64,000 bases of DNA from Planctomycetia bacterium (GCA_014192425.1 BJHK01000002.1:1-64000); one strand, 5' to 3'. Shown: positions 1 to 5,806, counted from the stretch's first letter. Notes: generated by a model from the letters alone, not told the origin. Numbers and translations are program-made.

Positions 1-40
1 ATTCCTGAGAGCCGCCGAAACCAAACCTCACATCGAAGGC

Positions 41-129
41 CGCTAACAAAGCGATGCAGCGGACTCGCGATAAAGTCCGGCGGTGTGGATAATCCCGTGG
101 TCGCGAGCCGCTGATCGCAATCGTTCGGC
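41..129 (+). repeat. attC-like site 1 (end of a cassette that begins left of the window)
   Basis: The outer cores are CGCTAAC (41-47) and GTTCGGC (123-129). The inner arm GCGATGCAGCGGACTCGCGA (51-70) pairs with TCGCGAGCCGCTGATCGC (101-118), leaving two unpaired bases on the left arm, as in integron attC sites with their extrahelical bases. The variable loop lies at 71-100. The next cassette would begin inside the right core near 124. No cassette gene can be seen to its left because the window starts there. Confidence 0.83.
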
Positions 130-275
130 GGAAAAAGTCTTGGAACCTTTTTCGGCTAGCGGTCTCTAAAAAGGACGACGCGGTTCGGCTAATCGAGAGA
201 CCCGTTCATTGAGAAGGGGCGAGAACTTTTTTACGCCGCCATACGTCCAAGCCATGTGTCGCAACCGGAGCTTCA

Positions 276-1037
276 ATGAAACCCATACTTGCGGCCTGTT
301 GTTTGGCTCTGCTGACGTCATCTCCTGTGCTTGCGAAACCGTGGTTCCAAACACTCGAAATAGAAGAAAAGCCTGAGAGAGTCGGCTACACGATCGAGCG
401 ACGCCATCAGGGCGACGCGGTGTGTATTGAAATCACGCTGAAACCCCAGGCCGCAAAGGTGTTTCAGGAGGCAACGCTAATTGTGTTTAGCCGAGACTCG
501 CAACTGCTCTACACCGATGTCGCCGCAAAAGATCGTGACGATGGCGGGAAGCAGATCAGCCTCACGGTTGCCAAAGCTAATTTGCCGAAGAGTAAAATCA
601 TGGTCCGAAGTGATATGCCCCAAGGGGCGGGGCCGGCTGTGCCCAACTTCGCGGGCTTTCGATTGATGCTACTGGAGCCTCCTGCCGCCGAAAGAAGACT
701 TCTGGACTTCAAAGGCCTGACCACGCTCGACGCCGAAATCGCCAAAGAACTCGCGGCAGCCGAAAAGTGGAATGGTGACCTCTCCGGTGTAACCGCCCTC
801 GATTCGCCCGACTCAGTTTCCATCGCCAAAGCGCTCGCCACCCGCGAAGGTCCGCTCCACCTCCCCAACCTCAAGAAAATCTCCCCCAAGACGCTCACGG
901 CTTTGATCCAGAAGGAAGACGTCGAGATTCCCTTGATCGAGACGCTGGAGTTGATTCAGGAGCCTGATGGGAGCGTCACTGAGGACTTCGTAATCCCGGA
1001 TGGGATTGGGGATCGCCAAAAGAGACAGAGGCGGTAG
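276..1037 (+). CDS. Secreted protein with the C-terminal module of the LRR-like tandem proteins (cassette gene)
   Basis: The 253-residue product has a signal peptide (MKPILAACCLALLTSSPVLA). A probably beta-rich domain of unknown family follows to about residue 145. The last ~105 residues read like one or two leucine-rich-type repeats and a conserved tail (WNGDLSGVTALDSPDSV, LPNLKKISPKTLTALI, LELIQEPDGS). The tail closely matches the C-terminus of the protein at 37040-39370: I counted about 50 identical residues of 77 by eye, and the protein at 35425-36879 has it too. GGAG lies 7 bases before the ATG. The gene sits between attC-like sites 1 and 2, so it is the payload of one cassette. Export is inferred from the signal peptide; no enzymatic motif is visible. 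Confidence 0.85.
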   Translation: MKPILAACCLALLTSSPVLAKPWFQTLEIEEKPERVGYTIERRHQGDAVCIEITLKPQAAKVFQEATLIVFSRDSQLLYTDVAAKDRDDGGKQISLTVAKANLPKSKIMVRSDMPQGAGPAVPNFAGFRLMLLEPPAAERRLLDFKGLTTLDAEIAKELAAAEKWNGDLSGVTALDSPDSVSIAKALATREGPLHLPNLKKISPKTLTALIQKEDVEIPLIETLELIQEPDGSVTEDFVIPDGIGDRQKRQRR

Positions 1038-1064
1038 TATCTGTTGATGAGATCACCGCGCAAG

Positions 1065-1152
1065 GCCGAACGAAGCGATGCAGCGGACTCGCGATAAAAT
1101 CGGTCCTGATGGAAAGTCCAAGGTCGCGAGCCGCTGATCGCGGGCGTTCGGC
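1065..1152 (+). repeat. attC-like site 2
   Basis: The cores GCCGAAC (1065-1071) and GTTCGGC (1146-1152) are perfect inverted repeats. The inner arms are GCGATGCAGCGGACTCGCGA (1075-1094) and TCGCGAGCCGCTGATCGC (1124-1141), with the same two extra bases as site 1. The arms are identical to site 1 while the loop between them differs, as expected for sites of one integron. The cassette it closes spans about 124-1146. Confidence 0.87.
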
Positions 1153-1168
1153 GAAGGAGGGCAACCGG

Positions 1169-1651
1169 ATGGTGATCAGCGAACTGCATGCATCGCACAT
1201 CCGCAAGGTTGAGGTCTCCTTCTGCCTGCTGGTCCCGGACCTCGACCCAGACGCAGTGACAGCGCGAATCGGTTTGTCGCCCGACGAAGCCCATCGGCGC
1301 GGCGACGAGCGTCGGCACAAGCGTTCGGGCGAGGTCCTTGGCTTGTACCGCGAGGGGCTCTGGGCGGTGGGCAGCCTCCCGCATGTGGACTCGAAGGACA
1401 TCAACGACCACTTCAGGTGGGTACTAAGACAGATGCTCCCTCACCGAGAGGCAGTCCTGGAGTTCGCTCGTGGCGGCGAGACGTACTTCGACGTGCTCTG
1501 GACGTCCACGTATCTCTATGCTGGCACCGGGCCGCTGATCGACGCTGAGTGCCTGGCGGGAGTGGCGGCACTGGGCGGCGGTATGGGCTTCGACATCTAT
1601 CATGTGGACGAGCCTGACGCCGAACCAACCGATGCAGCGGACTCGCGATAA
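1169..1651 (+). CDS. DUF4279-like cytoplasmic protein (cassette gene)
   Basis: This 160-residue protein has no signal peptide or membrane segment. It resembles DUF4279 proteins: an N-terminal strand (VEVSFCLLVPDLDPDAVTARI), a 'GLSPDEAHRRGD' motif, 'GLWAVGS', then a C-terminal 'LAGVAALGGGMGFDIYHVDE'. The biochemical role of the family is unknown. The ATG at 1169 is chosen because AAGGAGG lies just before it; upstream in-frame codons fall inside attC-like site 2. The last residues (EPTDAADSR) and the stop are encoded by the left half of attC-like site 3, so the attachment site supplies the C-terminus. Confidence 0.8.
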   Translation: MVISELHASHIRKVEVSFCLLVPDLDPDAVTARIGLSPDEAHRRGDERRHKRSGEVLGLYREGLWAVGSLPHVDSKDINDHFRWVLRQMLPHREAVLEFARGGETYFDVLWTSTYLYAGTGPLIDAECLAGVAALGGGMGFDIYHVDEPDAEPTDAADSR

Positions 1652-1707
1652 GATCCAGCGGAGTGGCTAGTCCTGCGGTCGCGAGCCGCTGATCGGAATC
1701 GTTCGCC
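1619..1707 (+). repeat. attC-like site 3 (overlaps the end of the upstream gene)
   Basis: The cores are GCCGAAC (1619-1625) and GTTCGCC (1701-1707). The inner arms GATGCAGCGGACTCGCGA (1631-1648) and TCGCGAGCCGCTGATC (1679-1694) match the other sites. The left core and arm are translated as the tail of the DUF4279-like gene. The cassette it closes spans about 1147-1701. Confidence 0.85.
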
Positions 1708-1726
1708 AACATTTACCGGAGTGCAC

Positions 1727-2023
1727 ATGGATTCCATCAAGGCCCATCTCGACAAGATTCCCACAAACGTGTTCTGGATCGCAGGGGCTTGTATCGCTGG
1801 TCTCGGCGCATTTCTGGAAAATCAGATTGCACCTGCCGCCCTTGGCAGGGCCGTCGTTGGTGCCGGCTTCATGCTTTGCCTCATGCCAGCCTTTTTGCGA
1901 GTCAGCGGCCAGGCGTCCGCGCGAGTGATCTCGTCAACGCAACTGTGGACGGTGGTCTCTCTTGGTCTGATTGCCGCAATTGTTGCTGGCATGCTCCTTG
2001 CCGCGACTACGTCTATCGGTTGA
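1727..2023 (+). CDS. Small integral membrane protein (cassette gene)
   Basis: This 98-residue protein has about three hydrophobic segments: roughly residues 15-30 (VFWIAGACIAGLGAFL), 38-58 (ALGRAVVGAGFMLCLMPAFL) and 72-95 (LWTVVSLGLIAAIVAGMLLA). I do not recognise a family. The ATG at 1727 is preferred over the GTG at 1721 because GGAG ends only five bases upstream of it. A 17-codon ORF (2023-2076) starts at ATG within the stop region and ends in attC-like site 4; I treat it as noncoding. Being a cassette gene, it is probably transcribed from a promoter further left or from its own. Confidence 0.7.
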   Translation: MDSIKAHLDKIPTNVFWIAGACIAGLGAFLENQIAPAALGRAVVGAGFMLCLMPAFLRVSGQASARVISSTQLWTVVSLGLIAAIVAGMLLAATTSIG

Positions 2024-2066
2024 TGAGGCGACTTGTTGAATTGCCTGAAGACCTAGAGTCCGCATT

Positions 2067-2154
2067 GGCGAACTAAGCAATGCAGCGGACTCGCAATAAA
2101 ATCGGGCGGTGTGGGCCGTCCAAGGTCACGAGCCGCTGATTGCCGTCGTTCGCC
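2067..2154 (+). repeat. attC-like site 4
   Basis: The cores GGCGAAC (2067-2073) and GTTCGCC (2148-2154) are perfect inverted repeats. The left arm GCAATGCAGCGGACTCGCAA pairs with TCACGAGCCGCTGATTGC (2126-2143). Compared with sites 1 and 2, GCGAT has become GCAAT on the left and ATCGC has become ATTGC on the right. That compensatory change keeps the stem paired and supports a selected hairpin. The closed cassette is about 1702-2148. Confidence 0.85.
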
Positions 2155-2156
2155 AA

Positions 2157-2492
2157 CTACCAGTTGTCCCCAAACGCTGCCGCGAATGCGTTGACGGCCG
2201 CCTGCGGGCTGCATTCCTGCATGAAATCAGGCCGCACGGTTTCGTATCTCTCCAGCAACGACGCCCGCTTCGCCCTGAGATACGGCACATAAACCACCCT
2301 GCCAGCGTGCTTGAAGTCCGAACAGCCGAGACGCCAGCGGTCGATGCCGATCACATCGGCCTTGATGTCTGTGGCGTCAAAGTCCATGCTTGGCATCGTC
2401 CGAGTTTCGCACGACGTTACGCCGCGCGGCCCGTAGGTGATCTTCACGATGCGGCAAGTCGTGTCGTCCATGTCGATCCCGGCAGCAATCAT
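2157..2492 (-). CDS. Unknown cassette protein encoded against the array direction
   Basis: This 111-residue protein begins MIAAGIDMDDTTCRIVKI, has a central ADVIGIDRWRLGCSDFKHAG and ends AVNAFAAAFGDNW. A GGAGG lies a few bases before the ATG at 2492, which supports this strand over the overlapping plus-strand frame. The spaced 'GID' strands recall RNase H-like or RuvC-like folds, but this is only a resemblance; no complete active site can be named. The gene lies wholly between attC-like sites 4 and 5 and runs opposite to all other cassette genes, so it needs its own promoter, probably in the neighbouring attC region. Confidence 0.62.
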   Translation of the reverse strand: MIAAGIDMDDTTCRIVKITYGPRGVTSCETRTMPSMDFDATDIKADVIGIDRWRLGCSDFKHAGRVVYVPYLRAKRASLLERYETVRPDFMQECSPQAAVNAFAAAFGDNW

Positions 2493-2507
2493 CGTATCCT
2501 CCTGCGT

Positions 2508-2596
2508 GGCGAACCAACGGATGCAGCGGACTCGCGATTCCGCCGCGTGGTGTAGTTTCGTCAGCGGTCGCGAGCCGCTGATCGCAATCGTTAGGC
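2508..2596 (+). repeat. attC-like site 5
   Basis: The cores are GGCGAAC (2508-2514) and GTTAGGC (2590-2596). The right core is a textbook attC right-hand core. The arms are ATGCAGCGGACTCGCGA (2521-2537) and TCGCGAGCCGCTGATCGC (2568-2585). The closed cassette is about 2149-2590. Confidence 0.87.
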
Positions 2597-2645
2597 CAAA
2601 GAAGAACAGTTGGCGGTGATTGCCCAGGCTTGTATACTGACGTCC

Positions 2646-2846
2646 ATGAGCACCGTCGAAGAAATCGAAGCCGCGATCCAGCAACTGTCGCCTGATCAGA
2701 TGGCGGCATTTCGCGCGTGGTACGCCGAGTTTGATGCCAACGCCTGGGATCGTCAGATCGCCGAAGACGACGCTGCGGGGCGACTCGACTGGCTGATCCA
2801 AGAGGCCCTCGATGACTTGGACGCTGGCCGCTTCACGGATCGATGA
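2646..2846 (+). CDS. Antitoxin-like small acidic protein of a RelE/ParE-type pair
   Basis: The 66-residue protein (STVEEIEAAIQQLSPDQM..., WDRQIAEDDAAGRLDWLIQEA) is acidic and helical. It resembles the short antitoxins that precede RelE/ParE-type toxins in planctomycetes and cyanobacteria; the C-terminal half would wrap the toxin. The ATG at 2646 is chosen over an upstream in-frame codon near 2610 because the family begins with this short 'MSTVEEIEAAI' helix. Its stop overlaps the next start by four bases (ATGA), so the two are translationally coupled. Pairs of this kind normally repress their own promoter. As a cassette-borne module it would stabilise the array against loss. Confidence 0.75.
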   Translation: MSTVEEIEAAIQQLSPDQMAAFRAWYAEFDANAWDRQIAEDDAAGRLDWLIQEALDDLDAGRFTDR

Positions 2847-3106
2847 AACACCGCGCAAGCCCCCGATTCTGGCGGCTTTACAGGGCCTTGCCGCAAGAGA
2901 TTCAGCAACTGGCCGATCGCGGCTACCACATGCTTTTGCAGGACCCGCGCCACCCGTCCTTGCACTTCAAGCGGATCGGAAGGGTTTGGTCCGCCCGCGT
3001 GGGCATGCACCATCGCGCTCTCGCAGCCAATCGCAACGAAGAGATTGTTTGGATCTGGATTGGGACCCATGGGGAGTACGACCTGCTACTCCGACGCAAG
3101 GGCTAA
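2843..3106 (+). CDS. RelE/ParE-family toxin-like protein
   Basis: The 87-residue basic protein (ASPRFWRLYRALPQEIQQLA, DPRHPSLHFKRIG, WSARVGMHHRAL, IVWIWIGTHGEYDLLL) has the RelE/ParE layout: an N-terminal helical hairpin, a strand with 'LHFKRI', a conserved arginine strand and the final 'WIGTHGEYDLL' strand with histidine. Related toxins cleave mRNA at the ribosome or poison gyrase; the sequence does not tell which. It overlaps the antitoxin by four bases and ends inside attC-like site 6. Confidence 0.8.
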   Translation: MKHRASPRFWRLYRALPQEIQQLADRGYHMLLQDPRHPSLHFKRIGRVWSARVGMHHRALAANRNEEIVWIWIGTHGEYDLLLRRKG

Positions 3107-3189
3107 CCGGACGCTGGATCAGACGGCGGCCATCGTCCAGCGGCATGGAGAATCAACTAGTCCGCCGCTGATCAGCTTTGCCGTTCTGC
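3101..3189 (+). repeat. attC-like site 6 (divergent)
   Basis: The cores are GGCTAAC (3101-3107) and GTTCTGC (3183-3189). The inner arms GCTGGATCAGACGGCGG (from about 3113) and CCGCCGCTGATCAGC (about 3162-3176) pair after skipping two bases in the left arm. The arm sequence differs from the other sites while the fold is kept, so this cassette probably came from another array. The closed cassette, about 2591-3183, carries the toxin-antitoxin pair. Confidence 0.72.
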
Positions 3190-3299
3190 GAAAATACGGC
3201 GTGCCGTGAGACGCCGCTGGTTTCGCTGGCTGGTCAGGGTGCTATCAAGGTAGAAATGAATCACTCCTGCCGTCATCAGGATGCCTAACGGAGTGCCCC

Positions 3300-3540
3300 A
3301 TGCACACGACCAAATACGTTCATTGGCAGGAAGGCGAGTCCTGGCTCGGCTACCTCGAGGAATACCCTGACTACTGGACTCAGGGCGAGACGGAGGCAAG
3401 CACGACTGGTATCGCAACCCGCTACCGGCGTGTCCCAACCTGTGCCTCGGCATCGCGAGATCAAGGCGCCACTCGCCCGCCGCATCATTCGGCTGCTAAC
3501 GGAAAGCCCGAAAGACCATTCCGTCGATGACGACGGCTGA
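3300..3540 (+). pseudogene. Decayed hicB-hicA toxin-antitoxin relic (cassette gene)
   Basis: The ATG frame starting at 3300 reads MHTTKYVHWQEGESWLGYLE then EYPDYWTQGETE, a clear HicB-type antitoxin N-terminus, then turns into nonsense and stops near 3530. In another frame the same DNA reads HDWYRNPLPAC, and after one more shift RHREIKAPLARRIIRLLTES to the TGA at 3540. These look like the C-terminal part of a HicA toxin (the 'PRHREI..LARKI' region). The middle, meaning the rest of hicB and the first half of hicA, is missing, and at least two frame changes are needed, so the pair is dead. Stretch 3190-3299 holds no gene I can support. Confidence 0.68.
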
Positions 3541-3546
3541 GAGTGC

Positions 3547-3634
3547 CCAGAACCACACACTGCACCGGACTCGCGATAAAATCTAACGGTGTGGTTCGCG
3601 TAGGGTCGCGATCTGCTGATTGCTATCGTTCGAG
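3547..3634 (+). repeat. attC-like site 7
   Basis: The cores are CCAGAAC (3547-3553) and GTTCGAG (3628-3634). The arms TGCACCGGACTCGCGA (3561-3576) and TCGCGATCTGCTGATTGC (3606-3623) are clearly related to sites 1-5 but carry mismatches, so the site looks eroded. It closes the cassette with the hicBA relic (about 3184-3628). Confidence 0.75.
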
Positions 3635-3656
3635 CAATGAACGGACTGCGCCCAAG

Positions 3657-4001
3657 ATGATGCTGTTGCCGAGTTGCGGAGCCGTTGTGACCGCGATGCT
3701 CGGCTGCCTTGGTCTGCTATTCCCAAAAGCCGTGGGCCGTGTTCTTGGTATCGAGCCCAATAAGCCGTTGGGCGTCTCCGAGTTCCGTGCGACCTACGGC
3801 GGATTTTTTCTGTGCCTTGGACTCGGATGCCTGGTCGCCCAGTCCGCGCAAGTCTTTGCCGTTGTTGGAGCAGCGTGGTGTGCGGCCGCTTTTGCCCGCG
3901 TAATGTCTTATGCCGTTGATGGCAGCCGGACGGGGCATAACCTTGCCGGAGTGGGAGTCGAAGCAGGCATTGGCCTGGCCATGTTGGCGGCGCAGCTCTA
4001 A
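3657..4001 (+). CDS. DUF4345-like small membrane protein (cassette gene)
   Basis: The 114-residue protein has four probable membrane segments: about residues 5-22 (PSCGAVVTAMLGCLGLLF), 48-62 (YGGFFLCLGLGCLVA), 67-85 (VFAVVGAAWCAAAFARVM) and 99-113. The motif 'LLFPKAVGRVLGI' followed by 'FRATYGGFFLCLGLG' is typical of DUF4345 proteins, whose function is unknown. The ATG at 3657 is preferred; the frame is open further left but only through attC-like site 7. A tandem ATG follows at 3660. Confidence 0.72.
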   Translation: MMLLPSCGAVVTAMLGCLGLLFPKAVGRVLGIEPNKPLGVSEFRATYGGFFLCLGLGCLVAQSAQVFAVVGAAWCAAAFARVMSYAVDGSRTGHNLAGVGVEAGIGLAMLAAQL

Positions 4002-4014
4002 CAACGCGTTATGC
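3996..4014 (+). repeat. Collapsed attC-like junction
   Basis: The DUF4345-like gene ends in CTCTAAC (3996-4002), a plausible left core. GTTATGC (4008-4014), a plausible right core, follows after only five bases. No inner stem exists, so the site appears deleted down to its cores, or was formed by an abnormal recombination. It is the last attC-like trace in the array. Confidence 0.45.
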
Positions 4015-4027
4015 AGTGAGGTGTTGC

Positions 4028-4189
4028 ATGCTGAAGTGGCCCGACAGTGGTAACCCGGTCCTCCTGCGGACCGACTTCGCCGACGACGCGGCGTGGGCCG
4101 CTCTCTGCAAGGCAGCCCAAGCCCCCAGCGACGAGGACTTTCAGGCGAACATCGATTGCGTCAGTAACCGATCTTTCGATACGCCATGA
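4028..4189 (+). pseudogene. Truncated DUF6924-like fragment at the array end
   Basis: The ATG at 4028 with GAGGTG before it opens a 53-codon frame (MLKWPDSGNPVLLRTDFADD ... ending DCVSNRSFDTP). It resembles the N-terminus of DUF6924 proteins ('LLRTDFSDD..W'), which are normally more than twice this length. The frame stops at 4189 without an attC site after it. The rest of 4190-4368 holds no gene I can support and marks the return to very GC-rich chromosomal sequence. Confidence 0.5.
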
Positions 4190-4752: not shown

Positions 4753-5670
4753 TCACCAACGATGCGCCGCTCCTGACCGCCGGCGCCATGCCGCGACGCC
4801 ACGACTCCACAGGGCCACCGCCGCCACGGCGAGCAGGCCCACGGCTATCCCGACCAACAGGTCGAGAAGCAGGGCAACGATCAGCCGCCACCAGGATGCG
4901 GCGAAGGCCGCTGAGCCATGCGGTGCGAGACCCTCCACGAGCTGGTGAAGCACGGGCAGGGCGTGAGTCACGATCCCACCCCCGACGAGGAACATCGCCA
5001 CCGTTCCCGCAATCGACAGTGTCCGCATCAGCAGCGGCGCCCCTGCGAGCAGGATCTGCCCACAGGCCCGACGCAAGCCCTGGCCGCGGGCGAGAACCGC
5101 GGCGATGTCATCCAACTTGATGATCGCCGCCACGAGACCGTACACACCCACGGTCATGCCGACCGCGATCGCCGTCAGGACGCCCAACTGCACGATGAGC
5201 GACCGGTCGGCAACCACACCGAGCGCGATGACGATGATCTCCGCCGAGAGGATGAAGTCCGTTCTGATGGCACCGCCAATCCGGGCTCGTTCATCCGTGG
5301 GACACGCCGCTCCCCCATCCGCTCCGCGATGATCGTGCCGGTGGAGCGCGTGAAGAATCTTCTCCATGCCCTCGAAGCAGAGATACACCCCTCCGCAGAC
5401 GAGAAGCGGCGCGATCGCCCACGGGGCGAACATGCTGATGCCGATCGCGGCGGGCACGAGCAGCAGTTTGTTGCGTGCCGAACCAAGGGCTACGGCGGCC
5501 ACGACGGGCAATTCCCGGTCTGCCCGCACCCCGGCGATCTGCCGGGCGTTGAGCGCCAGATCGTCTCCCACGACGCCGGCAGTCTTGGCTGCCGCCGCCT
5601 TCGTCATCGTGGCGACGTCGTCGAGTACTGACGCGACGTCGTCGAGGAGGAGCAGAAGACTTCCGGCCAT
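4753..5670 (-). CDS. DUF808 family inner-membrane protein
   Basis: The 305-residue protein begins MAGSLLLLLDDVASVLDDVA and continues with KTAGVVGDDLALNA, the hallmark N-terminus of DUF808 (YedI-like) proteins. About six hydrophobic segments follow, including a long one near KLLLVPAAIGISMFAPWAIA and several in the C-terminal half. The family's function is unknown. The start at 5670 matches the family start; an upstream in-frame codon at 5718 would add sixteen non-conserved residues. The 136-base gap to the next gene is a divergent promoter region with no motif I would name. Confidence 0.87.
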   Translation of the reverse strand: MAGSLLLLLDDVASVLDDVATMTKAAAAKTAGVVGDDLALNARQIAGVRADRELPVVAAVALGSARNKLLLVPAAIGISMFAPWAIAPLLVCGGVYLCFEGMEKILHALHRHDHRGADGGAACPTDERARIGGAIRTDFILSAEIIVIALGVVADRSLIVQLGVLTAIAVGMTVGVYGLVAAIIKLDDIAAVLARGQGLRRACGQILLAGAPLLMRTLSIAGTVAMFLVGGGIVTHALPVLHQLVEGLAPHGSAAFAASWWRLIVALLLDLLVGIAVGLLAVAAVALWSRGVAAWRRRSGAAHRW

Positions 5671-5806
5671 GAAGGCATCGTAGCAGACGATGCGGTCAGG
5701 CGGGACATGCCCCGGCAACCGTACGCCTCAAGCCGTGTGCCGGCGGAGTACCGGTCTGCTATCCTGACGCGTTCGTTTCAGAAAAAGGCTCTCGGAGGCG
5801 ATCGCC

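Follow-up and report, generated by a model that had tools for sequence, protein, structure and literature searches.

Distal part of a predicted array of integron cassettes on a planctomycete chromosome

The window analysed here, 64,000 nucleotides long, comprises the start of contig C2 in a draft genome of 3.98 Mb with a completeness of 95.9% and a contamination of 0.51%. Small genes alternate at its left end with repeats of about 90 bp, which raises the question of whether these repeats are integron recombination sites and, if so, from where the array is served by an integrase. Judged from the sequence, positions 1-4016 are almost certainly the distal portion of a planctomycete chromosomal array of integron cassettes. 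The initial annotation had proposed such an array, and the proposal is borne out by covariation in the attC sites, cassette-wise matching of their cores, two intI genes in the genome, a cassette shared with the complete integron of a relative, and eleven copies of PF07596. This family was absent from 14 control genomes, which fits a planctomycete host. The lower GC content ascribed to the region was also found, with 56-61% in 1-4000 versus 71% from position 5001 onward. Contamination is an unlikely source of the array, given the low value for the genome and a gene family of the first whole cassette that is common to many other contigs.

Recombination sites and cassettes

The seven repeats of about 88-90 bp described in the initial annotation were all found at their positions as significant matches to an attC covariance model, the search that the annotation had proposed. 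They scored 67-107 bits, with E-values of about 2e-16 to 2e-28 when the whole genome was searched, under a model built from 30 attC sites of the same genome, the seven of the window among them. The sites, all on the + strand, are attC 1 at 40-130 (41-129; 106.8 bits), with 1L CGCTAAC at 41-47 and 1R GTTCGGC at 123-129, attC 2 at 1064-1153 (1065-1152; 93.6 bits), attC 3 at 1618-1708 (1619-1707; 98 bits), attC 4 at 2066-2155 (2067-2154; 86 bits), attC 5 at 2507-2597 (2508-2596; 82 bits), attC 6 at 3100-3190 (3101-3189; 74 bits) and attC 7 at 3546-3635 (3547-3634). Lying in 41-3635 at cassette-sized intervals of about 440-1020 bp, and all in one orientation, they delimit six complete cassettes as well as parts of two others.

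Copies scattered outside any gene array, which had been named beforehand as an outcome against this interpretation, were also looked for. The genome contains about 36 model matches, nearly all within arrays on contigs C2, C23, C25, C4, C11 and C1. Sites of relatives, which were outside the training set, scored up to 104 bits, and 57 of 98 genomes, the present one counted, gave matches; integron loci of other phyla reached at most 48 bits with the same model. Isolated attC-like matches, either apart from any clear array or located where a contig stops, were L025:1566-1656 (contig C28), C1:103911-104001 and C6:233716-233761. Contig C23 possesses two short attC sites of ~53 bp each (L018:418-470 and L018:687-737), in which the cassette-end match is still 7/7.

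The consensus attC is an imperfect palindrome with unpaired spacers and a conserved stem of 15 pairs, 12 of which show compensatory changes, a number not attained in any of 500 shuffles. In the alignment 96.7% of the cells pair, compared to 85% after shuffling and 23-44% when the alignment is slid. The two extra bases noticed earlier on the left arm of the inner stem are real; they are extrahelical bases at alignment columns 18 and 25 with six paired columns between them, and excision was highest at a six-pair spacing in one study (PMC3053210). Folding of the bottom strand of each site, which had also been suggested, gave a divided result. For attC 1-5 the bottom strands are much more stable when folded than their shuffles (z -3.2 to -6.4), and for attC 6 and 7 they are little more so (z -1.7 and -0.7). 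As the top strands of attC 1-4 fold about as well as the bottom strands, folding energy is uninformative on strand preference.

Cores of the AAC...GTT form are present as the initial annotation stated, but its consensus RYYYAAC/GTTRRRY does not hold strictly. The core in the window is mostly GCCGAAC/GTTCGGC, and position 4 is a C in six of the seven sites instead of the purine of the literature consensus GTTRRRY (PMC3053210); GTT alone was treated as required. Among 95 sites of the family, position 4 was C in 66, A in 25, G in 2 and T in 2, whereas 58 sites of other phyla had 50 A, 6 G and 2 C, although the model was trained on the family sites. These cores, the weak folds of attC 6 and 7 and an intI and attI that are out of sight beside the array are among the points that speak against the integron reading.

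By precedent, an integron integrase would bind the folded single-stranded bottom strand of attC and cut the GTT core just after its G. The unit would be a cassette that carries one or two small genes and, at the 3' end, an attC, and that is inserted and excised as a circle whose two ends match. A crossover at G^TT predicts that the 1L core of a site agrees with the start of the cassette to which the site belongs. The GTTNNNN before each cassette was therefore compared with the NNNNAAC of its own attC, and this match with that between the two cores of one attC. Over 79 cases 1L matched the start of its own cassette better than the 1R of its own site in 55 versus 3 (p=2e-13), the match was perfect in 56/79 with the cassette start versus 13/79 with the own site, and 3.59 of the 4 variable core bases agreed, compared to 2.03 (sd 0.09) under shuffled pairing. 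In the window the agreement was 7/7 in four of six cassettes and 6/7 in the other two. This cassette-wise matching supports circular cassettes as the inserted unit.

The array opens, at the first base of the contig, with the tail of a preceding cassette (1-123, +) that ends in attC 1. Cassette 1 (124-1146, +) carries an ORF at 276-1037 for a secreted protein of 253 aa and ends in attC 2, whose 1L GCCGAAC is the reverse complement of the cassette start GTTCGGC (7/7). The last ~100 codons of this gene have 82% DNA identity to a resident multicopy family present on contigs C6, C7, C35, C42 and others, and the cassette gene may derive from a resident gene or be a mixture with one. Within its C-terminal part, positions 714-1003 share 75-82% DNA identity with a repeat-protein family on C6, C7, C18, C35, C42, C27 and C3.

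Cassette 2 (1147-1701, +; attC 3) encodes a DUF4279 protein (ORF from about 1169; PF14106, E 5e-14), for which no relative was found in 95 related genomes. Cassette 3 (1702-2148, +; attC 4) encodes a small hydrophobic protein (1727-2023) that matched no Pfam family and is probably a membrane protein, and cassette 4 (2149-2590, +; attC 5) contains a reverse ORF on the - strand, from 2157 to about 2492. The 1L core matches the cassette start in 7/7 positions in each of these three. Cassette 5 (2591-3183, +; attC 6) possesses a toxin-antitoxin pair, with the antitoxin at 2646-2846 and a ParE-like toxin at 2843-3106 whose match to PF24732 (E 8e-5) lies just under the cut-off. The initial annotation had named such payloads, including secreted, reverse-oriented and DUF4345 products; one of its "unknown" payloads lies at 3300-3530. 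This ORF belongs to cassette 6 (3184-3628, +; attC 7), and alignment to an intact HicBA cassette (C23:2059-2571, HicA PF07927 E 2.5e-10) identifies it as part of a broken HicBA toxin-antitoxin cassette with an internal deletion of ~156 bp and loss of frame. The search with PADLOC gave no match for the cassette proteins.

Cassette 7 (3629-4016, +) encodes a DUF4345 protein at 3657-4001 (PF14248, E 3e-11), for which NCBIfam gives a match below the cut-off, and retains the left half of an attC at 3996-4016, where the array decays. This half site reads CTCTAAC (3996-4002) and then GCGTTATGCAG; it agrees with the expected CTCGAAC in 6/7 positions, and the attC covariance model found no match here. 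Beyond it a fragment of a DUF6924 gene (4028-4189, +; PF21962, E 6.5e-11, positions 2-43) covers in 4028-4186 roughly the initial 43 positions out of 129, lacks an attC and is debris at the junction of array and chromosome. The first chromosomal gene to the right encodes a DUF808 membrane protein (4753-5718, -; PF05661, E 5e-97). No attC was found beside the homologues of this gene at 19 loci in relatives. With its last site decayed, its HicBA cassette broken and attC 6 and 7 folding weakly, the far end of the array seems to be old and partly inert.

Integrases, attI sites and contig ends

Since the window begins at base 1 of contig C2, an intI or attI belonging to this array is out of view. 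The genome harbours two intI genes, at C22:354-1388 and C10:365-1426, which are intact and belong to separate lineages; their products score 460 and 420 bits on TIGR02249 (cut-off 265). The C22 protein, the one covered by the residue-level comparison, can be aligned almost from end to end with 2A3V, an integron integrase of solved structure, and keeps the catalytic R, K, HxxR, H and Y. In a tree of 51 integrases, the nine loci whose array lies downstream of intI all fall on the branch that holds C10, in which some forks are below strong support. The C22 integrase is placed near planctomycete integrases of divergent layout, and a third, distant lineage of divergent layout occurs in the relatives G018, G008, G011 and G038. 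Elsewhere in the genome, positions 1501-1761 of L160 (C47:4949-5209) are a 97% copy of C22 142-402, the upstream region of intI with its first codons, and diverge on both sides.

The attI junction was predicted from the 1L of the first attC of each array. At loci linked to intI the predicted junction was present in 7/7 positions in 14 of 15 cases, most of them with a common A+T-rich motif before GTT. The contigs of both intI genes, C10 and C22, stop at GTTCTG after such a motif. Cassette 5 of the window has 80% identity over 551 bp to a cassette of the congener G013, where it comes first in a complete integron with an integrase of the C10 type. The alignment begins at C|GTT, the boundary expected from a G^TT crossover, and the left neighbour is an attC in the window and the attI in G013. 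The array of the window presumably began at an attI that now lies beyond the contig end, and one of the two integrases may act on it, in trans or in cis.

Contigs C23, C4 and C11 have exactly 127-134 starting bases in common, which points to overlaps of 127 bases. Under this assumption the break would fall 4 nt after the G of GTT in C2, 2 nt after it in C25 and 5 nt after it in the intI contigs. Contigs C23 and C11 are identical over 134 nt and separate right after GTT, and C4 separates a few bases before GTT. We infer that breaks at the crossover fit variable neighbouring cassettes, either in the population or, as repeated cassettes, within the genome.

Arrays without an integrase and the origin of the array

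Three other arrays of the genome, on C4, C1 and C33, possess an attI and no full intI. On C33 (L023:9476-9715) a copy of the C22 attI leader, with 82% identity over 262 bp, ends at the crossover. This copy lies next to trkH/trkA-like genes and is followed by one cassette (269 aa, weak DUF3738) with a partial attC at the contig end. Arrays C4 (L020 about 10137) and C1 (L024 6919) share a leader of 317 bp with 91% identity that ends at GTTC, where the array starts; this leader was not found in 59 relatives. On C4, 53 N-terminal IntI residues are left, and they resemble the third integrase lineage.

Counting arrays without intI in this genome and its relatives, an attI-like start was found in 8 of the 12 that could be tested, where the predicted heptamer beats all 255 decoys by motif score; in L188, L196, C4 and C1 the motif scores are modest, yet they rank first. 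The other four gave no attI. Integrase remnants adjoin L196, L199, L190 and C4. In the relative G022, contig C18 (L187, L188) carries about 20 attC sites within a stretch of some 23 kb and has a plausible attI at the array start, and no full IntI was found in that genome.

Loss of intI, its separation from the array and off-target insertion are listed as alternatives for arrays without intI (PMC8618304). The attI-like starts favour loss or separation over off-target insertion as the way in which such arrays of the family may have arisen. In the literature on attI sites without intI one precedent was found, in a Shewanella prophage, and CALINs had earlier been proposed to be degraded integrons (PMC9024848, PMC8618304), so the present result supports a known idea.

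The array of the window is an integron array or a CALIN, both of which are known kinds. It has seven attC sites, more than the two that a CALIN requires, and no intI on the visible side; the left side lies beyond the contig end. There is an even chance that it is a CALIN whose own intI beside attI has decayed, and whose cassettes are moved, if at all, by integrases on other contigs. The arrays on C4, C1 and C33, with the integrase remnant on C4, agree with this, as do the attI-like starts of most testable arrays without intI and the visible decay of the distal end. However, the left end is missing, and an adjacent intact intI on the C10 or C22 contig would also be possible. Somewhat less probably, the array belongs to a complete integron with the C10 or C22 integrase, of which it would be the distal part, split off by the assembly alone. 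Both intI contigs stop at attI without their arrays, five array contigs lack their starts, and the counterpart of cassette 5 in G013 comes first in an integron whose integrase is of the C10 type. Against such a split, the genome has more array ends than integrase starts, which leaves just some arrays joinable, and no common k-mers link the end of C2 to those of C10 or C22.

It is unlikely that the array arose from cassettes inserted off target, into a chromosomal position other than an attI. Such insertion is a described route to CALINs (PMC8618304), the DUF808 locus of relatives has no array, and a third of the testable arrays gave no attI, but most arrays of the family without intI start at an attI-like site. 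A dispersed hairpin family of another kind, REP-like or MITE, would likewise be palindromic, about 90 bp long and present on several contigs. The arrangement in arrays, the single orientation, the GTT cores and the copies linked to intI in relatives do not fit such elements, and the cassette-wise complementarity led us to drop them as an explanation; we give it next to no probability.

Comparison with known integrons

The initial annotation regarded planctomycete arrays as little described and the locus as possibly new. This claim is weakened, as integrons were already on record for Planctomycetes by 2008 (PMC2426708; see also PMC8618304), and the phylum has an attC covariance model of its own (PMC8352920), which likewise describes a taxon-specific attC family. 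The array of the window is ordinary integron biology in a phylum with known integrons, within a genome that has a scattered integron system with several platforms. Similar to the sedentary chromosomal integrons of Vibrio, Xanthomonas and Treponema, it shows the attC layout, G^TT boundaries and small accessory genes including toxin-antitoxin pairs, with a TIGR02249 integrase in the genome. It differs from them in its planctomycete host, the C at core position 4, arrays in many places and two intI lineages in one genome. Compared with a plain CALIN, its left end is missing and its sister arrays keep attI and sometimes a fragment of intI. The C10 integrase, similar to those of the same-direction integrons of Treponema (PMC3607928), groups with integrases read towards attI with the array downstream; here the branch is planctomycete, and for the second integrase of the genome, C22, the layout is divergent as usual. 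The CALIN of Shewanella prophage M16-3 (PMC9892861) starts at an attI of the type found in an intact integron on the same replicon, whereas here several arrays occur per genome, in a planctomycete family, some of them with intI remnants.

Less ordinary are the C usually found at core position 4, the attI-like starts of arrays without intI, and attC sites that are alike across integrase lineages. The prediction of the attI heptamer from the first attC provides a sequence test for the origin of arrays without intI that needs no integrase and is usable at scale. The family is also a natural case in which a single attC family with a core outside the consensus is apparently common to integrases of just about 50% identity. 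A tentative extension would be a distributed integron, in which one cassette pool with GTTC cores may be common to three integrase lineages and to several attI platforms per genome, many without intI yet open in trans, and in which the attC type would follow the host lineage and not the integrase. As far as sequence comparison goes, attC sites resemble each other across the lineages. Between genomes of the family attC identity was 0.66 within the third lineage (a small sample), 0.59 within the clade of downstream layout and 0.63 between the two, compared to 0.52-0.53 with other families.
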